Part shown: one piece after another, positions 2,155 through 64,000 of the stretch
Numbering within the stretch: the stretch's first letter is position 1
Layout: every line of letters starts with the position of its first letter
From: Hysterangium stoloniferum
Lineage: Eukaryota > Basidiomycota > Agaricomycetes > Hysterangiales > Hysterangiaceae
Direction of reading: 5' to 3'
Assembly: GCA_015178975.1 (NCBI GenBank)
Contig: WHVD01000025.1
Location: forward strand, 682,001-746,000
Length of the DNA stretch: 64,000 nucleotides
The notes under the pieces: generated by a model
Told to the model about the DNA's origin: nothing
Databases searched by the model: none
The model's input: only the letters and a program-made list of their open reading frames with translations
Made by a program: the position numbers and the translations under genes

Positions 2155-3528
2155 TGACAAATCGACAATTGTAGAACCAGTTTTGCTCAACATAACGTGA
2201 TATCCATCCTTAAAAAGCTGCACGGGATTAAGGAGTCGCACTTTAACTTTGGGAGTCCATTCGACATTGGGAATTTCGCCTATAAACTCCAGACCATGTT
2301 CTGTAACTTTGAAACATAATGTTCCAATACCTCTGGCATAAATATAAGCGCCATTTGCCGTTTGAATTTTCTTCGGATTTTTGTATGCCATAAAATCGTG
2401 TAAGTCATACATACTCGGCACATAATGTCCTGATGCTGCAGAATCCAGGAAATATTTATGTGGCACACTCTCCTTGCTTAAGAAAAATGTGGATTCAATG
2501 GCGGTAAACATTCCCCTACTTGCGACTGAGGGAGATGGCGTATTTCCAGATGAGTCGTTACTTCTATTTTGGTTCTTCCAATTTTCAGATCACTGAGCAT
2601 ATCTCTGCTTTCTTTTAGGACAATCGCTTGCCCAATGCGACAAATCCCCACATTCGAAACAACCAGATTGTGGAGTACTCCTCCTGATCTGAGTTCCTCG
2701 TGGAATGGTGGCACGACCACAACCCCTATTATGAAATGCTCCTCGCTGCGTACTGATTCCCCTCTGGGGGCGAAATGTGGAACCTTCACCCCTCTGGGCA
2801 CGAAATGCAGAACCTTTGCCATAGCCTGGACGTATTTCTTTTCGAATCTCAACTTGACGCAGTTTATTGACTACTTCTTCGACAGTATCAACATCATAAT
2901 CGATTGTCATTGACATTATATCGAAATCCTCAGGTAGTGTACTCATGAATAGGCTGAGGTAATCAGCATTTGTGATGGCATGACCAGCCTCCAACAATTT
3001 AAGTCTGATGGAGTCCATTTGGGATTTATATTCGATAATTCCTGTACCGTCGTAACACATGCGAACGAGTTCGGAAAGTAGCATCGCACGACTATTGGCC
3101 AATCGTGTTCCGTAAGTCATCTCCAAATTTTCCCATGCATTGACCGGATTACTATCCACCATTATAGCCACCCTGGGCTCGTCTTCAACGCGGAGCATTA
3201 TCTCGCTGTAGGCCCTCTTCTTTCGAAGTTCCCAGGCCTCTTCGATCTCAAGTTCCTCCATTGTCGGAACCTTCGCATCTACGTGTATAGGATCCACCAG
3301 TTCTCCAGTTACGACCTTCCATTGATTCAAAGACTCCAGCACGGTTTTCATACTCGCGCTCCAAGTAAAATAATTGTCTTTGCGTAACTTCGGAAAAACT
3401 TGGTAAGCACTCCCAGTGCTTATTTCATAATTCTTAATTTTGTCCAGGGTAATCATTTCAGTGATTAATTAGGATGGCTTGTTAATTGTTTGCTATCAAT
3501 ATAAAGAGCCGGGGCCCATAACCTAAAG
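2155..3528 (-). mobile_element. Ty1/copia relic: gag and protease part (fossil)
   Basis: Read on the minus strand, the order is: primer-binding site GGTTATGGGCCCCGG at about 3509-3528; a gag-like frame 3456-2590 of the UBN2 type ending in a CCHC zinc knuckle (CFECGDLSHWASDC); then a retropepsin-like segment 2511-2160 with the DSAAS active-site motif. Integrase and reverse transcriptase are not present: the element stops at the small Tc1-type insertion. A related LTR follows at 3529 onward. The copy is broken. Confidence 0.85.
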
Positions 3529-28305: not shown

Positions 28306-29221
28306 TAGAACAGTTAGAACTTCCACCACTCTGCTCCACTCCGTTTCCCATTATGGTTTATGATTTGTCACTATTCAGACTCCACTCCATTCTGTCCCAT
28401 TCCTAATGCCAAATTTGGTGTTTACTATTCCCATTTTATGTTTTGCTCGTTTCATTTCATCATTACTGGATTTGGTATGTCATTCACTCCACGGTCTATT
28501 TAAAACTGGCAGATGTTGTACATACAATCCAGTCAGAAAATCAGCTTAGATTCCCCCCAGTAATCTAATACATTTTCTGCTCTAAACTCCTACTTGAATC
28601 ACACCACTCATGCTAGTCAGAGCCCACAGGCTCCGGCACATCTATCTCTCTCACCTACCTCGACTCACGACCCACGACCTCTGACCTATGACCCCCGCCC
28701 GGACTCCCCAGGATTCCCGTCCACCTGTCTGAAATTGGACGACACGATCTAGTGAGGGCGCAGCCTATAAGCTGAAGCCAAGTCCTACCGGATATTCTGT
28801 GGGTTTCTCCGGAGACCTGTTGTGTACGTACCCTAACAACAAGGCACAACTGGTCACACAAGGTTTTTCACAGGTCCCAGGTGTCAATTACTTTGATACA
28901 TTTGCTCCGGTTGCCAAGCTCACATCAATACACACAGTCCTTGCAATGGCAGCCGAGCTAGATCTTGAATTGCATCAGATTGATATTAAAGGTGCATATT
29001 TAAATGGAGAACTCACCGCTAAAGAGCAGATTTACATGAAACAACTACCCGGTTATGCTGAAATCAACTCTACTAGCAAAGTCTGCCATCTTTTGAAGAC
29101 ACTGTATGGTTTAGAACAATCTGGGTGGTGCTGGTACCTGACACTCTTACTAAAGCACTCCCATCTGGCAAAGTTAAGCACTTCGCTTCGGAGTTAGGAC
29201 TTACAATGATTTGAGGGGGAG

Positions 29222-36753: not shown

Positions 36754-39486
36754 TTACAGCTCGTCTTCCCATCTATGCGCTAACGCATCCTCCTCCCCTG
36801 CTTCCCGTCCTTGCCCCGCCTTTCCATCAGCTTCGTAAATTTGCGAGACGAGAGAATCCATGATCCTCTGTATTTCTATAGTATGACCCGTATATTAGCC
36901 TTGCGAGACGATAGGGTCACATCATTCAAACATACCTGCTCGCTTGTCTTCAAGAGCATCAACAGTAGCTGTTGCGCCTTCCATGTCCAACCAGTCTGAT
37001 GCATTTTTCAATGTCTCATGGATTTTTTTCTTCTCATCCACGCTCAACTACCAAACATTGTTCAAGTGTCAGTGCCACGGGCAACGCCTCGTGTGCCTCT
37101 TCAACACACCTTTCCTCCCAATCCTTCGTTGTCTTCTAATTGCCTTTTTACAGTCGAGATACACTCAACGAACGAGTTCAATCCTTCAATATGGGATTTA
37201 TGAATTGCGTCGACGCTGGCGTAGTCCTCAGCTTCTTGAACCATCCGTTGTATCTCTTCTTCCGAAAGTCGGCCTTCGGCGTGCGTCTTGATCGTGATTT
37301 GGTGAGATCTGCCACTGGATGGAAGGACATCAGTATTTATGTACCACATCCTTGACGCTGTAACTCACGTTCCACGATCAACAGCTCCGACTTTCAGAAT
37401 ACCATTCACATCAAGTTCGAATATGACGTCGATTTGGGGGATTCCGCGTGAGGCAGGTGGAATATCTGTCAAATCAAATTGTCCAAGCGGGTGGTTGTCT
37501 TTTGTCATTGAGCGTTCTCCTTCAAAGACCTGGATGCGAACTGGTTGCAGTAGTCAGTAATCAGAAACCGCCCTCCGAACGAGGCGGAAGTCAAACCTAC
37601 CTGTTGATTGGTTGTCAGTTGCTGTAGAGAATATCCGGCTCTTTTTAGTTGGAATGGAAGTCCCTCTTGGGATCAGCTTTGTCATGAGACCGCCTGTAGC
37701 GTGAGTTAGGTTAGCGGTGGCTTCTCTTGGTCATCGATCTTAAGCTTACCTGTCGTCTCGATCCCCAGTGTCAAAGGACATATGTCCAATAATGTGACGG
37801 AGTTATCCTGAGTGTCGACGCCCGATAACACACCCCCATGTACAGTCGCACCATAGGCAACTGCCTCGTCAGGGTTGATCCCCTTCGATGGCTCTTTGCC
37901 GTCGAAGAAGTCCTTCAATATCTGCTGCACTTTTGGAATACGCGTTGATCCTCCAACTAGGACGATCTATCTTGCTATTAAAATACCTCACGTAAGACAA
38001 GCACCGACCATACTCACTTCATCAACCTTTTTCTTCTCGACCTTCGCATCCTTTAGTACCCGCCTCACAGGGCCCAACGTCTTCTTAAACAGATCCGCAT
38101 TCAGTTCCTCAAACTTCGCTCTCGTCAGCGTCTCCATCAAGTCTCTCCCTCCCTCAAACGCTTCAATCTCGACCTTTGCGCTCGTTTGTGAACTGAGTGT
38201 TCGTTTCGCACCTTCGACAGCGCGCTTGAGCTTACTCATCGCGCGCATGTCCTTTGTGACATCCGTACCGGTCCTGGTGCTATAGAGCTTGGTGAGATGG
38301 TCAATGACTCGGTTGTCGAAGTCCTCCCCACCGAGATGGGTGTCTCCTGCTGTGGCGAGCACTTCGAATACGCCATCCTCGATGGATAACAAGGAGACGT
38401 CGAACGTTCCGCCGCCAAGATCGTACACGAGAACCACCGACTCCCCATCGCCGTACTTCTTATCCAATCCGTATGCAATAGCAGCAGCTGTAGGCTCATT
38501 AATGATGCGGAGGATCTCGAGCCCTGCGATAGTGCCCGCATCTTTAGTGGCTTGGCGCTGTGCATTGTTGAAATAGGCCGGGACTGTGACAACGGCGTGG
38601 GTGACCTTTTCGCCTAGATAAGCTTCGGCTGTCTCTTTCATTTTATTGAGGACCATTGCGCTGATTTCCTCAGGGGTCTGAGGGTTGGTTTCATGTCTGC
38701 TACCAGGAAAGAATGTGAAACAGGCAAACGTACGAAGTTCTTTAACTTGCCGTGGTGTGTAACTTGAATCGATGGTTTTCCGCCTTTGTCCTCGACCTTA
38801 AATGGCCAGTGCTTGGTATCCCTCTGTACATCTGGATCATCAAATTGACGACCCATGAGTCGCTTGACATCGAAGATCGTATTTATCGGGTTTGAGTGGA
38901 AGGCGTTTTTTGCGCTTTCCCCGATCCTTTTTCGGGAAATAAAATCAATGATGGCGGGAACAACGTATAGACGAAGGCGGGACGTACAGGCGCTCATTCT
39001 CCGTGAAGCTTACCCAGGAGGGGGTTATCCGATTTCCCTGGTCGTTGGCAATAATTTCGGCACGACCTGCACGAGGTATTCTGTGTTGCGGGTGTCAATG
39101 AAGACGGATGCGATGTTAATGCGAAAAGAAGACATACCCCACACATGAATATCTAGTTTATTGATTCTCTTGGTAAGCGTTCTTGATAGTCACTATAGGT
39201 AATAATAGTAGAGCTCACGTTGTTCCCAAGTCTAGACCACAAAAATTGATTTAGGCATACTTGAATGAAAGCGAGGAGACGTACCTATACCGATAACGGT
39301 TCCATAAGCACTCCGCTTTGTGGAATTTGTTTCCTGTGCTTTCACAGCGAGAGGACAAAACGCTAGAGTTGCGAAGATCATAAAAACGACGAGAAGAAGC
39401 GTCCCGGACGTCGTTCGACAATCTAGGCCTCGTTGGACCGACAGCGAAGGCGATGATCTTCTTTTTGAACTTCGGGGTAATTTCAT
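36754..39486 (-). CDS. KAR2: ER chaperone BiP (HSP70 family)
   Basis: A 698-aa ATP-driven chaperone of the ER lumen. Twelve exons on the minus strand: 39486-39285, 39231-39219, 39152-39138, 39080-38988, 38926-38734, 38677-38018, 37966-37750, 37693-37601, 37540-37369, 37314-37110, 37047-36936, 36875-36754 (2,097 nt). The N-terminus has a basic stretch and a hydrophobic signal ([19 protein letters not shown]). ATPase motifs: [31 protein letters not shown], and [14 protein letters not shown]. The substrate-binding part has [28 protein letters not shown] and the lid SDWLDMEG. The protein ends AHRWEDEL, an ER-retention-type tail (usual HDEL). Two exons are only 13 and 15 nt. The gene is intact. 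Confidence 0.93.
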
Positions 39487-48079: not shown

Positions 48080-49119
48080 TGTTAAGTTCCGGATCTCGGG
48101 GCAGAATTTCCGCTGGATATTCCGGATACTTCCCAGAAATATGTCCTCAGAGTTTCGGAGAATTAGTCTGGGAGTTTCTGGGGATTAGTAACGGGAGTAT
48201 CGGAATAATACCAGAGTACAGATGGACTTGGCTTCAGCTTATGTGCTGCGCCCTCGTGCACTCACTCAGGTGTCCATATTTCAGAGGATGAATATATGTC
48301 GGAATGTTTACAGATACTTGGAAGTTCCGGGAGTTCTGGATATCTGGAGTCCAGAGAGTTCCGAAGATTGAGCGTACAGAAAGACAGAAGAGATACAAAC
48401 TAATTCGAGATTAAAACTAAAGAGTAAGTACATGGCTATGGAAGACTATATAGATGTTCCAGTAATTGTACTACAAATCTAGAAGTATAATAAGACAGAT
48501 TAGGATGAAGATTCTGAAATGGGAATACAACAAGAACAATAAACAAGCGAATGAATAACTGTTAACCTGTCAGTTACTAAATACAGAACAAGGATGAGGT
48601 TCGGAAATATGGAAACTATAAATGTTCCATCGTTGGAAGTCAGGTCAGATTTTGAGGTGGATGTCAGAAAGTCGGATTGGAGACTTGGGGTGGAAAGTCA
48701 GATCAGAGATGGGAGTCTGAGTGGGAGTCTGAGTGGGAGTCTGACTGGGAGTCTGACTGGGAGTCTGACTGGGAGTCTGACTGGATGTCTGACTGGATGT
48801 CTGACCAGATGTCTGACCAGATGTCTGACCAGATGTCTGACCGGATGTCTGACCAGATGTCTGACCGGATGTCTGACCAGATGTCTGACCGGATGTCTGA
48901 CCAGATGTCTGACCGGATGTCTGACCGGATGTCTGACCGGATGTCTGACCGGATGTCTGACCGGATGTCTGACCGGATGTCTGACTGGAAGTCACCTTGA
49001 AGGGATGAGGTTCAGGTTCCAGTGGATTCCGGATCTTGATACTGGTCTGGAAGATGGTTCGGACCCAGAGATAATATCCGGGAAATACTCTGAAGAGTTT
49101 CCGGGAACGGATCTTTACA
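48080..49119 (+). mobile_element. Solo LTR, 1,040 bp, with internal minisatellite
   Basis: Starts TGTTAAGTTCCGGATC and ends CGGATCTTTACA. TAAAG is duplicated at 48075-48079 and 49120-49124. In copy A (8820-8880, complement) the same site is uninterrupted. The LTR is rich in CCGGA and TTCCGG words and holds the 12-bp array at 48714-48985. It shares words with the element at 25689-28838. No internal domain remains. It appears whole as a solo LTR. Confidence 0.85.
48714..48985. repeat. 12-bp minisatellite inside the solo LTR
   Basis: About 22-23 units that shift along the array from GGGAGTCTGAGT through GGGAGTCTGACT to GGATGTCTGACC and AGATGTCTGACC, the last two partly alternating as a 24-bp higher-order unit. 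The period is a multiple of three and has no stop in several frames, so long frames on both strands (SDWESDWE, TSGQTSGQ and GSLTGSLT types) are artefacts of the array. Confidence 0.92.
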
Positions 49120-53970: not shown

Positions 53971-55861
53971 TTTCGTTCAAGAGATCGTCCCAGACCTATC
54001 ACCAGCAAAGCCCCTTGACCCGGAAAAAGGTTTCAAGGACACTTTCTCGAGAAAAGAGTACGAGTGCATTTTACTGGGGTCTGGTACAGTTCATTATGCT
54101 GGTCACTTCATCTTCCCTGTTAACAATGCCCTTGCTTTTTCAGGGATACCGTCTCTTCCATAGGGATTGTAAGAGGTCCCAATCGTCCCGGACCGGTCAA
54201 ATTGGATCATATGTAAGCCTGGCGCCCCAGTCTTACGCATTCTCCTTTTGTTTCACTCTTTTGTGCCACTCTTTTGTGCCACCCCTTTTGTTCTAGCACG
54301 TGATCACAGCACATATAAGCCTAGGTAGTTTTTCTTTCTCTTACCTTACCATACACTGCATCTGCCTGTATCCTGTTCTTGTTCTGGACAATACACTGTG
54401 GTCCTGTCAACTCGTGTGACCGCCAGTGATCCCAATTGATGATGGGATTACACTTTTTTTTTTGACACCAGCCACTTCTTACTACTTCCTTCACTCTGGA
54501 CAACACTGCTGTACCTTGGTTCACTCGTCAGACCACCCGCTCACATTCCCTAGCACTCCACACTCCCTTGTCTCTTCCTAAGAGACGTCAACCCCTGTTG
54601 GCACCCGTACTTCTCCAATTGGACGACAACGATGGATTACCAGTACATTTTGAGAACAGATAACATCATGATGATACTAGAAAATCCATGAAATATATAA
54701 GATAGACAATGATCTCATACTCATGCCCGGCTTCATTACCAGTTTTCCTAAAAATAGTTCATATGTTGGGAAGTTAACTAGGATGGTGCAGGCGGACATA
54801 ATGGAAGTCCCTTGCGACTGTGGTCCCGTTCATCACTCTATTTTTAATTTAGCCAGCTGATAGAGTTCGGTTCTCATGATCACCTCTGGCACCTTGAACC
54901 TGCCTATGAGTATGACAATGATCAGGTCAGAGATCATCCCGTTAGAGGTTTCACACAATGCGAATTCATGATGCTTGACGAGGTATCAAAAATAGCATAT
55001 TGCAGACGAATGTATCTTAAAGAATGTTCTGGCTAAGAGGCCCCTGGGGACTCAGAGAGCCGTCTACTGATGCATCAGCAAGTACCACAGATCCTCTATC
55101 TCACACCTCTTTAATTTTCACTTCCCGGCTTCATACTGTCTCCAACCTCGGCCTGTGGCAAACCCTCAACTCGATTCAAGCCCAGTTCAAATCGTCCAAA
55201 TGGACAGCCTGGTGAAGCTTACCACAACGGACCTTTGATATTTAGTATCCGCTTCCTTAGATAATTAGGATAAACGCGCGTAGTAGTTTTTTCATTATCA
55301 TTTTTACCTACCGTCACTATCGTGTACTGCCGTCTCTGTTCTTAGACGAATATACAGCGAGAGATGAGATGGTACTGGATGTACATTCAAGTTGATAACA
55401 ACTTTTCTTGGGGTCCTACTACTTTTTGACTATGGTAGCGGACCTGACGTGCTAGTAAATGATCGGGGACCGAATTTCACTGCAAGATCCCACCGTCATT
55501 AGCAAAACTAGGTATGATATATTTTATGACGACAAAGAAGTTTCAGAATGGGCAAAACTTTTTTAAGGCCTAACGGCCATTTCAACTTCTGTTTGGCTAA
55601 GTAGGTTCAACCAAAATGAGGTCCCTGGGAGTAACAGAGCGGTGAGACTTATACAACTTCAGCCAACAAACTATGTAACAAGTTGGACATGGCGGGCACA
55701 AGATCCAAAAATAACCAAGATGGGGGGCACATCATACTCAATAGTAAACTACTGGGCTTGATAAGATACAGGGTAGATAAGCATCATGTTAAACGTACAT
55801 AAATGATGGCATTAAACAACATATCAATCGTAGCGTTCGGATACAACAAGGTGCACAGGGA
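53971..55861. other. Intergenic, no gene recognised
   Basis: Unassigned frames occur (for example 53810-54163 continuing from the F-box fragment, and 55024-55215). C/T-rich sequence near 54210-54600 with ACATATAAGCC could be a decayed LTR or promoter, but I find no second copy. Otherwise nothing. Confidence 0.35.
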
Positions 55862-57559
55862 AAGCTTGTCAATGGGCCTTTATGTTTTAAAAGCCATTGA
55901 ACCAACGCAAACACTCCGGGTAAGGGCTTTGCGAGGTAATCCCAGCTACCTGCTGCCTTGGTCCGTACACATAACGCTCCACACGATTGATGCTGGTCAT
56001 GATGTATCAGAATGAGTCCGTTTAAGATTCAAAAGAAGAACGCTTGAAAGAAGACTGACGTTAAAGAGATTCTGGCCAACGGCAGGGAGATCCTTGATCA
56101 CTTCAATTCCCTTTTCCTCTAAGTCTGCAGCCGGCCCGATCCCAGATAAAAGCAAGACTTGTGGGGTATTGAAAGCCCCAGCACAGATGATGATTTCCTT
56201 CCTGGCATGAACACGGTACCGAGGCGAATTGCGGGCTTGGGAGAATTCGACCCCGATGGCCCGAGGCCGTGAGATGGCGGTTCCGTCTTGAGAGGACATC
56301 AGGAGTAAGATATGCAGTTGCAGAAGAGCTTCGTAAAAAAAATTTTAATGCAACAGCTTGGGAAAGAAATTATAGGGCGGCGTACGGCGGCCTTTTGTAT
56401 CAATGAAAGCGGTGAAAGAGCTGGCACCCAGAGTTCCATTTGGCGTGTTCAAGTCTCTGTACAAAAAATATAATTTCGAGTCTGAGTTCTGCTATTACTG
56501 CTTACGGGCTCCACGGAATGCCTAATACTGCGCAGGCTTCCATAATAACATGGTATAGAGACTATATAATTCTGGAATCAGATAACAACTTGCAATCAGA
56601 CCAAAATATCTAAAACCATACGGCGACATCCGGTTCGCTTGTTTTCCAAGGGCCATTAAAACCATGATCTTTCAGCTTTACGTCGGGTTTTGAGGCGCTG
56701 GCGGCATATCCTTCAGACTTCATGAAATAGCTACAATCACATAATCTGTCAGAGTTTGGCATCAGTGATATACACGACACGCACGGATGAAGTTCATCAT
56801 AACTCCAACCTTCTGCACCATTTGCAGCCCACGAATTAAAATCTTTAAAGTAATCTCAGACGATGCGGGGTAAAACGTTGGTAAATGAATGAATTATGCA
56901 GTACAACCTTGGGGGGAGTAACGGTGGTAAATACACGCGTTGAGTGGACTTGATGATGGTTAATATGGTCTATATTCACAGCGTGAAGGTCGTAACGCAT
57001 AACGCAAGACATACCTGGTTCCTCCAAGTATCTTTCCTCGGGGCATATAAACTTGACGATTATTCAGATTTTCTTGCGGGGAACGTGATTGTTGGCGATA
57101 GCAGCGGCTCATATTAGACGGCGTGACTTATTTTGACGCACGCTAACGAACGCACACTGAATAATATTCCCAATCAGCCTTTGTTTTCAGCAATTTAGCA
57201 AACCCCATAGGAAATTTCGTAAAGAATGTTCGTTTGTGACTGCGTGCAGGTCAGTTATTATATATGTTTGTCATTTTCAGGCATTAAACGCAAAGTTCAC
57301 CTCTGTCCTGCCTCCACAAGAAGTACCGTCGCATTTGGATTTTCTGATAAACGTGATGCCAAAACGCATCCAGCAGTTCCTTAACAAACGAATGAGCGGG
57401 ATAAATTATTTCTATGCCCAACAACTGACCACCTCCTACAATCACATAGTCGTAAGTCTTCCACTGGGATGGTGCTCGATAAGAGTCCTTTGGATCGCTT
57501 CGAGTGCCAACCAGGGAAGGATCAGAGCCAATAGTGTTCTTTGACAAGGTGATACCCAT
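55862..57559 (-). pseudogene. GMC oxidoreductase, truncated and decayed
   Basis: Minus-strand homology starts at ATG 57559 with WKTYDYVIVGGGTAGCVLAS (FAD-binding motif split by an intron). It continues ATVLLVEAGQS, NLNNRQVYMPRGKILGGTS, DFNSWAANGAEGWSYDEL, LNTPNGTLGASSFTAFIDTK, then [20 protein letters not shown] (GMC signature 2) and SWDYLAKPLPGVFALVQWLL. Problems: a TGA and a lost INAM-type segment after GGTS, a one-base phase shift after FIDTKGRR, about 25 residues missing before RAIGVEF, and no C-terminal domain with the catalytic His pair after about 55862. Related to aryl-alcohol oxidase/glucose dehydrogenase types. A functional protein is unlikely. Confidence 0.8.
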
Positions 57560-59251
57560 GGTATTTCGATGTCGAAGGTATGAAAACACTAACCACTAGC
57601 AAGCACTTTATAGTCAGTACTAGTCATCTTCCCACACCAGTATCGCACTTCGAGGGATCGATCTTGGCCAAATTTCAAATAGCGAACTGTCCTGTACAGG
57701 GACTAGTGCGCTACGCCCTAGTGCAGTAGGGAGGTGTTCAGCGGATTATGAGATGGGCTTGCATAAGAAGGCCAATTAAGGGAAAGTGCAATCGAGTGAT
57801 TACGCCTATAGAATCAATGGGAGGCTATGGAAAGCCGCTCGATCAGGGTCAACACCAGACTCGACATTCCTTACATGTACTAGTCCTTCTTAGTAAAAGA
57901 TAATGAATAAATGGACTGTCTACACAAGGATATAATTTCATAAGGCTGAAGTTGGACTGTTCGGCAGTAGGATCTGAATTAGTTGCCCGCTTGTGCTCGG
58001 GAAATAGCCATTGGCTTGCATAATCACGTGATGCAACGCGTCTGATGTTTGTCTATCATCCTTCCTGGTCGCCTGAAACAGGGTGTGTTTCAAATTCTGT
58101 CACAGAATGTCTGCTGTCGTTCAAAGGTGGCACACCTCAAATGATGTCTGTCCGATGGAGGAAAATTAATCGCCAACTGTGTCAACAAAGTCACCCCGTT
58201 TGTATCGGATAGCCATACATCCTATTACTTTACAATATTATTTATGCAGATGTGACAGGAGTGGAGCGCAATCTCTGCTTGCGATACCGTTGCGGCTGTT
58301 GTGTTGAGTTGCTGTGTTAAATTCGGGATTCGAGACGGGTTGACCGATGAGTGATGTCGGTGTTTTTTGTGACGCCGGAGGAATGCTGGATAGGTCTCTT
58401 AAAATGCCAGCCTCTAGAGGTGGGTACCGATTAGTTAGTAAGCTATGGCCCTATTGTCGCCCAGCCACACAACGTTGCCCCTTATCGCCCTCCATAATCT
58501 TACCGTTGACTCCGCTGCTCCTTTACCTCAGACTTTCAACAATGTCAACACCGTTTTGCCATATAAAGAATTTTCGTTACATACTTTTGGAATATCGCCT
58601 CGGAGTGGGACCCTCTGTGGTTTCAGACGAAGAATTCGCCACTTTGGTTTCCAGTCTGAAGCACATGGATGTAATGGATGATCTGATTATATACCGTCAA
58701 ACCAAGGGATCACTTGGGGTCACACGAGATAAGCACGAAGAGTGCATGTCGGCACTTTTTCTGTAATAGCGTTCATTGGAAACGCGATTCTCAATCTCCC
58801 TATTGCTCTCGCTAGAGTCTCAAGCACGACGTGGGGCTGTCCGTGCATGGGAAAATGTAGCGAAGGCGTGACTTTCGAAATGCAAGCTCACCCCTCTCTT
58901 AATCGCGTGAACCTGACTGGAATAGACCCATTATTTATGAATGTGTCACATCAGGAAGACAATTAACAGTGAGAGGGAGTACGGGTACAAAGCAAACGGC
59001 GATCTTCTATACAACTTGTCAGGTATTCTCATATGGTTGGTTGTCCACCCGTCAAGCTCCGTCGGACATCCGCCAGGCTTAATACCAGTGGATCCTTGAC
59101 AGCAAACTATGCGGTGACTCAATTGACCAATGCCACATTAGACGCCCGGGAAGATCAACTTATTGATTTGTCGGAGATCATAGTCCACTCGCAACTCAAC
59201 CTTGCTCTCAACCTCAACTACTGAATTTTACCACCCTCCAAAATCAACGCC
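57560..59251. other. Intergenic, one unassigned frame
   Basis: A 139-codon plus frame at 58347-58766 (text EYRLGVGPSVVSDEEFATLV) lacks a family match; 58742-58966 and 59033-59224 are shorter. Nothing repetitive is seen. The last 50 bp before 59252 are C/A-rich without a TATA box. Confidence 0.35.
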
Positions 59252-62200
59252 ATGGTCATCAAAGCTATGGCTCGCAACATTGGTCCTTTGGCCAATGTTG
59301 TTATTCTCCTTCTGGGAGTCATTTATATAGTCAAAATACTTGTCCATGGCACATTGTGAGTTCATTTTCCTCGTCTCCACACATAACCTTAATGTCCCCC
59401 GTATAGTATTCCGCGACTTTCCCATTACCCTCAACCTGCTGAACTCATTGCCCACCTCCGTCGCTTTGCAACACACGCTCTCGCTGTTTCCATTGCCACA
59501 GTCAAAATACTTGTCCATGGCACATTGTAAGTTCATTTTCCTCGTCTCCACACATAACCTTAATGTCCCCCGTATAGTATTCCGCGACTTTCCCATTACC
59601 CTCAAACTGCTGAACTCATTGCCCACCTCCGTCGCTTTGCAACACACACTCTCGCTGTTTCCATTGCCTCCTACGTTAATATGTGCGAATATAGCCTTCA
59701 CATGTTACTTGTGGTTTCTTGGTTCCCACTCCATCAGTGGAGCATTCTGAAGTTTCTCAGCTTTGTGGCGGAAAAGATCTTCGGTCCATCGCTGCTTCCT
59801 GCGCCTGTAGCGGATGTGTCTTCTTCCTCAAAATTCATGGCGCTTTTCAAGGTTATGACAGGAGCGAAGATTGAGCCATATTACGCGAATGTTCTTGTCA
59901 GCTTGTTGCCTGTCAGTATCTCCTCGCAACTGATGCTGCGTACCTGCTATCGTCAAAGGTGAGCCAGTCATCCGTTTATTTAGCAACCCATACTGTAATC
60001 TAACCATGTCCGCTAGCCTTGCCCCTGTCAGGGGTTCTCTCTGGAAGATGTTGCCTGCAATCCCATACATGCTGGCTCAGAGTCCGATGCCCGCAGATGT
60101 TGTAGATCAGGTCATCAGCTTGTTCTCCAGTGTTGAAGACTCTCTTGTGGCAGAGGCTTGCCCCATGGTTACTTCAAGGTATATCCCCATCCCTCATTTA
60201 TGTCCCGGTCATTGACAAGCTGCACATTCAGGATCACAGCAACATTTGCATATGTCGTAGTTACACCACTTATGGTAGTGTATCTCCGCAGACCCATTTG
60301 GAACGTTTGCCATCAAGCGTTGTGCCTTGTGGCACGAGCCGCAGGAATGATGTTGTTTTGGTTGCTCAAAATCGCAGCGACAATTGTGTTTAAGTTGCTG
60401 AAATTTTTTTTGGGATGTATCTGCACGGTCTCAGCGTACCGGTCATATTCTCTTGCAGACGACCTCATGTCATCCCCCCTTGTCCCCATCCTCATGTGCA
60501 ATCCTATCGCCGTTCGCCGCGTATGCATTCTCTCCTCACAGCTGATGCTACATACCTGCTATCATCAAAGGTGAGCCAGTCATCTGTTTATTTAACAACC
60601 CATCCCGTAATCTAACCATGCCCATAGCCTTGCCCCTGTCAGGGGTTCTCTCTGGAAGATTTTGCCTGCCATCCCATACGTGCTGGCTCAGAGTCCGATG
60701 CCCGCAGATGTTATGGATCAGGTCATCAGTTTGTTCTCCGGTGTTGGGCGCTCTCTTGAGGCAGAGGCTTGCCCCATGGTTACTTCAAGGTATATCCCCA
60801 TTCCCTCATTTAGTCCCGGTCATTGACAAGCTGCACATTCAGGATCACAGCAACGTTCGCATGTGTCGTAGTTACAGCACTTATCGCTGTTCGCCGCGTG
60901 TGCATTCACGCCACAACCAACAGCATCAACACAGTGAGCGGAGCACAGCAGGGCGCCCCTGAGAGCATCAATGAGGACAAGGACGATTTTTTCAATGAAG
61001 AGATGACCCGCCGCATGAGCGCCTCTTCCAATGCCAAACCTACTATATCCACTGCCGCTGCCACTGAGGCAGACCCCACCCCACCCGCCACCCCCACCTC
61101 ATCCGCCACCACCAAGACTGCAGCAGAACCCACCCCATCCACCACCACCGACACTGCAGCAGACCCGCCCCCATCCGCTCCCACAGTTCCTGCAGCAGAC
61201 CCCACAGCCGACAGTGTCGACACACTCGGCCTGGAGAACATCAATGATGATGAGGACGACATATTCATTGATGAAGAGATCACCCCAGCCGCTACCACCG
61301 CTACGGCAGCAGACCCGACCCCATCCAGCATCACCGCCATTGCAGCGGACCCGACCCCATCCGGCACCACCACCATTGCAGGAGACCTGGCCCCATCCGC
61401 GACCACCACCACTGCAACAGACTCGACCCCATCCGCTGCTACAGCTCCTGCAGCAGACCCCACAACCAACAGCGTCAACACACTTGGCGGAGCGCAGCAG
61501 GTCGCCCCTGAGAACATAATTGATGACGAGGATGACATATTCATTGATGAGGAGATCACCCCAGCCGCTACCACCACGACGGCAGCAGAACCGACCCCAT
61601 CCGGCACCACTGCCATTGCAGTAGACCCGACCCCCTCCAGCACAACCGCCACTGCCGACCACATTCCACCCGCAGATACAACTGCCTCTGGCGGCGAGGG
61701 ATCGGAGGCCTCGATATGGGCCCCGGGAAACCAACCTGTGGAATACCCCGCTAAAGAGGAACAAGCCGACATCTGGGGTGCATTTCACGCAATGAAGAGG
61801 CAGGCCAAGGAGGAGCTTGCCGCCACCGCCAAACCTATGGCATCCCCATCGATAGATACAAGTGCCTCTGGTGGTGAGGGATTGGAGGCCTCGATATGGG
61901 CCCCGGGAAACCAACCTGTGGAATACCCCGCTAAAGAGGAACAAGCCGACATCTGGGGTGCATTTCACGCAATGAAGAGGCAGACCAAGGAGGAGCTTGC
62001 CGCCACCGCCAAACCTATGGCATCCCCATCGATAGATACAAGTGCCTCTGGTGGTGAGGGATTGGAGGCCTCGATATGGGCCCCGGGAAACCAACCTGTG
62101 GAATGCCCCACTAAAGAGGAACAAGCAGACATCTGGGCTGCATTTCACGCAATGAAGAGGCAGACCAAGGGGGAGCTTGTTGCCACCGCCAAACCGATGG

Positions 62201-62538
62201 CATCCACATCCACAGATACAGCTGCCTCTGACGGTGAGGGATTGGAGGCCTCGATATGGGCCCCAGGAAACCAACCTGTGGAATGCCCCACTAAAGAGGA
62301 ACAAGCCGACATCTGGGGTGCATTTCACGCAATGAAGAGGCAGACCAAGGGGGAGCTTGCCGCCATCGCCAAACCGATGGCATCCACATCCATAGATACA
62401 GCTGCCTCTGATGGTGATGGATTGGAGGCCTCGATATGGGCCCCGGGAAACCAACCTGTGGAGGAACAAGCCGACCTGCCCGCATCGCATTCAACGAAGA
62501 GGCGGAAAGGTGGGAGGCGGAGGCGTGTGCAGAGCTAA
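59252..62538 (+). CDS. Unrecognised membrane/repeat protein built by exon duplication
   Basis: 987 aa from seven exons: 59252-59355, 59407-59526, 59578-59958, 60017-60178, 60232-60570, 60628-60789, 60843-62538 (2,964 nt, all GT-AG, frame closes exactly). I do not recognise the family. Residues 1-75: hydrophobic NVVILLLGVIYIVKILVHG, then a 40-residue block starting IPRLSHYPQPAELIAHLRRF that occurs twice. A 54-residue block, SLAPVRGSLWKMLPAIPYML onward, is encoded by exons 4 and 6, each followed by a hydrophobic ITATFAYVVVTPL-type segment. Exon 5 has a strong hydrophobic run (AAGMMLFWLLKIAATIVFKL). From about residue 450: an Ala/Thr/Pro/Asp-rich linker with EDDIFIDEEIT repeats, then 60-residue tandem repeats (about 700-965), and a basic end KRRKGGRRRRVQS. 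It may be membrane-anchored with a long polar tail; function unknown. Confidence 0.75.
59331..59672. repeat. 171-bp tandem duplication covering exon 2
   Basis: Units 59331-59501 and 59502-59672 are almost identical, including the intron with its GTGAGT or GTAAGT donor and the TATAG acceptor. The duplication adds a complete, in-phase intron-exon unit to the gene at 59252-62538. Confidence 0.92.
59925..60890. repeat. 610-bp-offset duplication covering exons 4 and 6
   Basis: About 59925-60290 recurs at about 60535-60890 with few differences, including both flanking introns. Exons 4 and 6 are both 162 nt and phase-matched, so the copy is spliced in frame. Confidence 0.92.
61670..62475. repeat. 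180-bp coding tandem repeat
   Basis: Four full units and one shortened unit, with an exact 180-bp period (61681, 61861, 62041, 62221, 62401). Each encodes 60 residues containing LEASIWAPGNQPVE, KEEQADIWGAFHAMKRQTK and ATAKPMAS. The first two units are almost identical and the later ones carry shared changes (ECPTKEEQ, KGELVATA or KGELAAIA), which shows stepwise expansion. Antisense frames of 463 and 288 codons over this part are by-products. Confidence 0.95.
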
Positions 62539-64000
62539 CTCAAGCAGAGGTCAAACTAGCCCAGTAGTGGGTAGTTTTCTTTTTCGTTTTTCATTTTTGT
62601 TTTTTGTTTTCATTTTCACTTTCGTTTTCGTTTTCCTTCCCTTTTTCTTCTATTATTTCTGCCCTCCTATTTACTTTCTTGGGTGATCGGCTCGGCTGGT
62701 TCTGGCTCTTGTCTTTAAGAACAAGGTGCGCCGTTGTTCACCTTCCTGCCTCAGTTTACCTATTCGCTGTCATGTAGCTGTGTCTGTTTCGTGAGTATTG
62801 TGTCTTCAGAGTCTCCTAGGCCACGGGCTTGCTGTGCAAGCCTGTGGGACATTGCTATGAGGACGTGCTGCACGCTGGATGACTAAACGTACGTCCTTTG
62901 TCTTAAGATAGCGGAGTCTACTCTAACAAATGTGTTCTTTCTTTCTTCGTCTTTCAGCGGCTTGGGTGCAATGGGGCATCCGTGCAAGGGATTACTGCTA
63001 ATTCCCGACTGGTTGGGTATGCATGATTCTCACATTTCTTTTCATTTATTTTAACACATTTTTTTTTCCAGTCCCATAACCAGGGTAGGACACTTTCGGC
63101 ATCCACCTTTGGCAAATATTGGCGTTCTACCGAGCGGACTCGAGGCTGGATGGAGCACCTGCAGAAAGCATTCAAACGATACCCGGTGGGTTTTATTGTC
63201 CTATGTATTGCATAATTTGGGTACTGATCCCATTCTACTCTCACACCTTTGACGCAGGACGTCAAGACTGGCTACTGACTTGATTTTTAGAGTCTTCTCT
63301 TGGCACCGACTTCGGCAAATTGTCTAGGCTTTGACTTTTTATTCATTTATCGACCTCTGTATGTCCAAATATTGGCTCGTATGCTTATCTTCTGAAAATT
63401 TGACGGATTTCTTTATTAATTTGTTAGCATCCTACCTTGGAGCGTATCAGCTAGTACGGGTCAATCCGGCAAAGGGCGACCCTGCATCGATGTAACTGTG
63501 AGTTTCTCTCACTCCAGTACAATTATGCTCTCATACTCACCTCATCATATCTTAAGCGGCCCCAAGGAACGGTTTTGTTGTCTGGCGGAAGCACTCCTCT
63601 AGTCGTCCCATATGGTCTTGAGAAGTTGGACTCGTACAAGGCCTCTCATCGCACTCTGTCTCTTTAAGAGTGTAGCCTGCCTACGAGTCCGACTGAGATT
63701 TCGGTGAGTTTCCATTCATGGTAAAATTATTTTAGTCTGACCTCTCGTTTAGACGACACGAAACTACTAACAGACAGACTTTCAAATCCAGCGACGTTCT
63801 TGAAGTTCACGAGATGAACCAACCGAGCCACAAGGTTTCTTTGTGTTATTGACTTTAATTTCTTGTTGAATTTTCCGAGATCAATTTTATTGTTTTGTTT
63901 TGTAGTCTGTTTTGTTTCTTCTCGTTTTGTTCTGGTTGTTTTGTTCTGTGTTTCGCTATGCCGCAACTTTGCTCTGCTGTTAATTGCTCTGGTATCAAGG
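62539..64000. other. T-rich 3' region and possible exons of a further gene
   Basis: 62575-62660 is a T-rich TTTCGTTTT array, probably the 3' UTR. Between 62940 and 63280 open stretches (SASTFGKYWRSTERTRGWME, HLQKAFKRYP) are separated by GT...AG segments of intron size, so part of another gene or a decayed one may lie here. I cannot find its start or recognise it. 63300-64000 shows nothing firm. Confidence 0.3.

Follow-up and report, generated by a model that had tools for sequence, protein, structure and literature searches.

A large, dispersed gene family in Hysterangium stoloniferum that probably encodes fast-evolving, membrane-type repeat proteins

The stretch of Hysterangium stoloniferum DNA analyzed here (the window; 64,000 nucleotides, positions 682001-746000 of contig C168 in a genome of 111 Mb and 554 contigs) carries a seven-exon gene that is likely to belong to a large, fast-evolving mushroom multigene family of membrane-type repeat proteins, a family that has no name in the databases and that would have spread by duplication of stretches of chromosome. 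In a preliminary description the gene had been presented as a protein grown by duplication, with an order of parts that was not known from any family. Growth by in-frame duplication of exons and repeats is indeed present and is seen in relatives as well, but the gene did not grow in isolation: it is a single member of a large family dispersed through the genome, and its order of parts recurs in the close copies.

We envisage that the products of this family would have a short membrane-type segment at the N terminus, then a core and at least one further hydrophobic segment and, in the members that were read, a long low-complexity C-terminal tail made up mostly of tandem repeats. Duplication of chromosome stretches would carry introns and neighboring sequences along with the gene, and the copies so created would be reshuffled through exchange and would decay through mutation. 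The tail of the protein, for its part, may change through the gain and loss of whole in-frame repeats, some of which would be units of an exon plus an intron.

Structure of the gene and its predicted product

The proposed gene model at window positions 59252-62538 stands, with seven exons totaling 2964 nt (987 codons and a stop) and six introns of 51-58 bp, all of them GT-AG (Table 1). The three in-phase duplications that had been reported within it are also present. The first is a 171-bp unit, consisting of 120 bp of exon and 51 bp of intron, whose two copies are 98% alike; the second is the block that gives rise to exons 4 and 6, for which we measured an offset between exon starts of 611 bp (previously given as 610) and whose underlying direct repeat, 59919-60273 versus 60531-60884, is 91.6% identical over 356 aligned bases; and the third is the array of 180-bp repeats, the copy number of which ranges from 3.4 to 5.4 in five sister copies of the gene. 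An antisense open frame of 463 aa (window 61102-62490) crosses these repeats. It is probably a by-product of repeat composition, and its presence means that open length within the repeats proves little.

Table 1. Features of the gene and its surroundings, in window coordinates
Feature	Position	Strand	Description
Duplicated block	54635..64000		Common wholly or partly to other copies; against C168b it extends to ~65104 in window numbering
GMC-oxidoreductase fragment	56000..56344	-	Pfam PF00732, E 2.5e-13; inside the duplicated block
Exon 1	59252..59355	+	Holds the start codon and the first of the membrane-type segments (peak LANVVILLLGVIYIVKILV)
Exon 2	59407..59526	+	Additional exon from the 171-bp exon+intron tandem duplication
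Exon 3	59578..59958	+	Family core (ALFKV..GAKI...LLPVS......CYRQ); alignment A1 of 9 members, 10 invariant columns
Exon 4	60017..60178	+	54-codon block (PADVxDQVISLFSxVE...CPMVTSR)
Exon 5	60232..60570	+	More hydrophobic segments, then the beginning of the second block
Exon 6	60628..60789	+	Duplicate of exon 4 through the ~611-bp block duplication
Exon 7	60843..62538	+	Acidic part rich in Thr, Ala and Pro that contains 36-bp repeats and the EDDIFIDEE motifs; then the 180-bp repeats, the basic C terminus and the stop codon
180-bp (60-aa) coding tandem repeats	61674..62462	+	4.4 copies
Conserved 3' tail	62575..63850	+	Pyrimidine run, then short stretches with conserved splice-like sites at their borders

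An alignment of 16 rows (the window and 15 copies, up to window position 60950) indicates which of these parts are general. The start codon of exon 1 is present in 14 of the rows, full-length exon 2 is confined to the window and C168b, a copy 95 kb off, and exon 6 is unaligned in seven (C24, C177, C112, C334a, C334b and two second copies at which the fetched stretch ended). Exon 4 has a counterpart, with 44% protein identity, in the distant members C268a and C268b.

The hydrophobic segments, the EDDIFIDEE motifs (two, plus a diverged third) and the basic KRRKGGRRRR terminus that had been described for the product were all found. Membrane-type segments are predicted from a hydropathy scan at residues 6-37, 59-77, 256-275, 285-325 and 419-447, and in residues 441-700, which have a net charge of -35, Thr makes up 20%, Ala 18% and Pro 12%. 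The acidic-aromatic motif takes the form DDEDDIFIDEE in the window and DDDDEEFNYEEM or DEDEDDDVFIY in relatives, and a repeated acidic stretch adjoining an aromatic core occurs in the window type (including C124), in the C268 type and, as seen by eye in the translation, in the C112 type; a search for it in C206 and C72 found none. AlphaFold, run on exon 3 with a nine-sequence input, returned a mean pLDDT of 50.6. As a working picture we infer a membrane anchor bearing a multivalent disordered tail, in which the repeated acidic-aromatic motif would serve as a multivalent docking site; both the membrane location and the disorder are predictions.

Copies of the gene and the constraint upon them

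When the 180-bp repeats were used as a DNA query against the same genome, 17 matches were obtained, and the N-terminal part yielded 41 matching pieces which, grouped by hand, represent at least 22 places at 80% identity or more and three others at 65%. The nearest copies in the N-terminal part, on C168 itself (95 kb away) and on C74, are 99% identical to the window. Distant members occur on C268, C535, C206, C72 and C348, with a core exon that is 25-41% identical to that of the window, and with single proteins as queries the C268 type yielded 31 matching pieces and the C348 type 155, some of the latter being overlapping pieces of one place. No relatives were confirmed among the viral contigs and prokaryote genome contigs that were searched. 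The small contig G000:C348 (L037, L038, L033) contains two arms in inverted orientation, at least 6.5 kb long, 99.95% identical and ~1.9 kb apart, each with one family gene and its tail, and the same pattern of opposed tails is seen on C338 and C320; these arrangements may be young palindromes or an assembly effect.

Among the 16 aligned rows the projected exons are open in ten and broken in six, two of the broken rows also stopping short where the fetched sequence ended. In the open rows exon lengths vary by multiples of three (exons 5 and 7 being counted jointly in C112, which lacks exon 6) and introns vary by one base; the introns are kept in the open copies that were aligned. Even the distant C268a has three donors and one acceptor in positions that correspond to those of the window, along with recognizable intron sequence, its exon 4 acceptor being uncertain; in C348 the end of exon 3 differs. 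In a simulation, the frame of a near copy stayed open by chance in 24-30% of trials, which is not improbable, and only for C112 was this outcome unlikely, at 0.019.

Estimates of dN/dS for the N-terminal part lie between 0.37 and 0.74 in 15 pairs by the NG86 method, with bootstrap values of 0.46 (0.31-0.66) for the window and C112, 0.47 (0.33-0.68) for C517 and C112, and 0.40 (0.22-0.83) for the window and C517. By YN00 they range from 0.53 to 1.10 in the 14 of 15 pairs that could be computed (0.95 for the window against C212a and 1.04 against C544), and values as high as 1.10 imply that the constraint is weak. Over the last 113 codons NG86 gave 0.55 for C24, 0.48 for C212a and 0.58 for C544, all three intervals lying under 1, and 0.82 (0.51-1.35) for C334b, an interval that includes 1. 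The comparison of exon 4 with exon 6, which the preliminary description had named as a test, gave 0.54-0.84 in six copies, with intervals reaching far beyond 1, and nine pairs of C268-type members gave 0.50-0.77, with upper bounds of 0.93-0.99 in three pairs and 1.07-1.41 in the other six. The earlier suggestion that preservation of the frame points to a protein is borne out to the extent of some constraint, which is backed by the intron sites, the exon lengths in threes and the NG86 ratios below 1. Our reading is that the sequences describe a fast-evolving protein under weak or relaxed constraint, for which the detection of weak purifying selection depends on the method.

In-frame repeats are also a common feature of the other members. 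Tandem repeats occur in the longest frame, which is not always the family frame, at 17 of 21 loci, and in 15 of these 17 all of the periods (9 to 342 bp) are multiples of three, the exceptions being C268a (14 bp, 1.9 copies) and C72 (17 bp, 41.6 copies). The C268a gene contains six consecutive exon+intron units, 264-270 bp in length. The donor of each unit intron is GTAAGT, and because these introns contain in-frame stops, splicing is needed for the frame to continue. The subfamilies differ in their repeats, those of the C268 type being acidic and without Thr richness.

Segmental duplication, exchange and the conserved 3' tail

The block that the window has in common with C168b is ~10 kb long, from 54635 to ~65104, and the ends of such blocks differ between pairs of copies, which fits segmental duplication better than a transposon with fixed ends. 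A GMC-oxidoreductase region (55856-57842, minus strand) was duplicated along with the gene in several of the copies; one of the two frames scanned in it (56000-56344) matches Pfam, and its PDB matches include aryl-alcohol oxidases, with a choline dehydrogenase as the best. At L020 and at L025 two family genes stand in tandem with an identical junction, window 64424 being joined to 59168, which suggests a common tandem duplication. Elsewhere in the window there are Copia-type gag and reverse-transcriptase fragments (2593-3468 and 28733-29194), an HSP70 fragment (37991-38797) that is nearest to BiP among solved structures, and a 12-bp tandem repeat of 23.7 copies (48710-48993) that is open in frame and encodes a WESDWESD-type peptide.

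Different segments of the same copies have different closest relatives. Across the N-terminal segment, the identity of C517, C34 and C124 is 97-98% to C212a, C212b, C544 and C24 and ~95% to the window; in the tail the same three copies are 98-99% identical to the window and ~93-95% to the other four. In AU tests the N segment rejects the tail grouping (p-AU 0.0045, an optimistic value because the groups were picked once the identities in these sequences were known), and the tail in turn rejects the N grouping (p-AU 1e-47), which itself has only moderate support (74/78). Together, the variable ends and the conflicting trees point to segmental duplication accompanied by exchange among copies.

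From 62575 onward, the tail is 69-74% identical to C268a and C268b, the coding comparison with the same relatives giving 65% for an N-terminal stretch (59828-60182) and 71-72% for a 90-base stretch of exon 6; the tail thus aligns to distant members no worse than most of the coding sequence does. A tail match was sought in the fetched part of C535 and none was found. Across the genome, a 29-base tail pattern, allowed up to two mismatches, occurs at 128 places, 71 of them in forward and 57 in reverse orientation, and its reversed control at none. For 54 of the 100 listed tails a core match lies within 8 kb upstream on the same strand, compared with eight for which one lies on that side on the opposite strand, so that roughly one tail in two comes after a recognizable family gene; this count drew on 131 core places, namely 28 of 31 C268-type and 103 of 150 C348-type matches listed, with the weaker ones omitted. 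The other 46 have no core in that set, and the DNA upstream was examined for three of them: on C430 it holds a C348-type copy truncated at its 5' end, and upstream of C24:345386 (L034) and C25:199356 (L032) the window protein found no match.

Indels in the tail alignment are 1-5 bases long, which argues against ordinary coding. Folding of alignments of eight tail stretches gave no clear energy gain over column-shuffled controls (z -0.4 to 1.3), and Rfam gave nothing above threshold on the tail, a lax search yielding two chance-level hits. A conserved RNA structure in the tail is therefore not supported, and neither is a hairpin that had been spotted by eye. Judging from its sequence, the tail may be a spliced 3' untranslated region.

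Alternative explanations and comparable systems

As for the purpose of such a family, we offer a low-confidence guess, which we would expect to fail more often than it holds, that the proteins act in recognition or genetic conflict, be it in self/non-self discrimination, cell fusion or a selfish element and its suppressor. We favor this kind of role because the same pattern of change is seen in families of that sort.

The products might otherwise be cell-surface or cell-wall glycoproteins in which the Thr/Ala/Pro-rich repeats form an O-glycosylated stalk outside the cell, a proposal that we regard as unlikely. It would account for the composition of residues 441-700 and for the differences in repeat number among copies, and repeat number also varies in the yeast adhesins, but it sits poorly with the several hydrophobic segments ahead of the tail, with the strongly basic KRRKGGRRRR terminus, which is more cytosolic or nuclear in kind, and with the acidic, Thr-poor repeats of the C268 type.

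That the genes form a selfish killer family of the meiotic-drive or spore-killer sort seems to us quite improbable. Such a family would resemble the wtf genes of fission yeast in encoding many-copy, multi-exon membrane proteins that act as poison and antidote or as suppressors, with repeat number determining specificity. Kept introns, broken copies, exchange, variable repeat number, hydrophobic segments and co-duplicated flanks are all consistent with it (PMC6526906), but the tails here are long and acidic. In an equally improbable and fuller version, a killer-type family of at least 100 intact or broken loci would use repeat number and shuffled segments to set recognition or neutralization, and its spliced 3' region would be both a control element and a source of homology for exchange.

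There is little to recommend a discrete transposable element that carries the gene as its own. The many dispersed copies, the ~10-kb blocks and the retrotransposon fragments in the window would fit one, but the block ends vary by pair, a GMC-oxidoreductase fragment travels along, and the introns retained in open copies speak against retrotransposition. The frames scanned, which were part of those in the block, contained no transposase or polymerase domain, and a short-word search of the two ends of the window block against each other gave only 7-12-base matches. A transposon with fixed ends or terminal inverted repeats was rejected on the basis of these matches and of the pairwise variable ends. 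Least plausible is non-functional repetitive DNA with frames open by chance, for which the six broken rows of 16, the ease with which length stays open within repeats and the YN00 ratios that reach 1 in some pairs could be cited, but which is opposed by splice sites kept in C268a despite 31-44% protein identity, by NG86 ratios below 1 N-terminally against C112 and C517 and C-terminally against three of four copies, and by exon indels in threes versus single-base intron indels.

A large family of membrane-type repeat proteins with exon+intron repeat modules and with a common, apparently non-coding 3' region, conserved no less than the coding sequence and in places more, would provide a natural series for the study of how proteins lengthen without loss of frame. 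If it is indeed a conflict or recognition family, its members would be candidate genes for such a process in mushrooms, for which we know of no cloned genes.

The claim that the protein fits no known family has held up against Pfam and NCBIfam profiles and PDB sequences. Pfam-A and NCBIfam profiles gave nothing above the curated cut-off in the gene's window frames and the relatives scanned, the strongest of the weak matches below it was to Ets, at E 7e-4, from the repeats of C112, and PDB sequence searches returned no matches for the core profile (E<=10), the C348-type core (E<=1) or exon 7 (E<=0.1). Full-text literature searches, made with limited combinations of terms and covering few subscription papers, did not find the family.

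Three systems invite comparison. DUF6535 (PF20153) is a large uncharacterized membrane-type family of mushrooms and, to our knowledge, is confined to mushroom-type fungi; it has 75 matches in this genome and none in 14 control genomes, which, like the short introns and the GMC-oxidoreductase fragment, fits a mushroom-type host. The present family is like it in being unnamed and in occupying many places in the genome, but the window exons and relatives scanned do not match it at E<=1, nor does the core at E<=10. Adhesins of the FLO11 type in fungi have long Thr-rich tandem repeats in variable number, as here, but the gene in the window places its hydrophobic segments first and ends in a basic stretch, and it has no adhesin domain according to Pfam. 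The third system is the wtf genes of Schizosaccharomyces pombe, whose pattern of change is also known from families without drive. As published, wtf is a multi-exon dispersed family with intragenic repeats of variable number, exchange and broken copies, spread by segmental duplication together with flanking sequence, and with repeats of 33 and 21 bp that often overlap predicted transmembrane domains (PMC6526906). Set beside that account, the present family differs in its periods of 9-342 bp and its acidic tail, and is alike in its multi-exon structure, its variable intragenic repeats and its exchange between copies.
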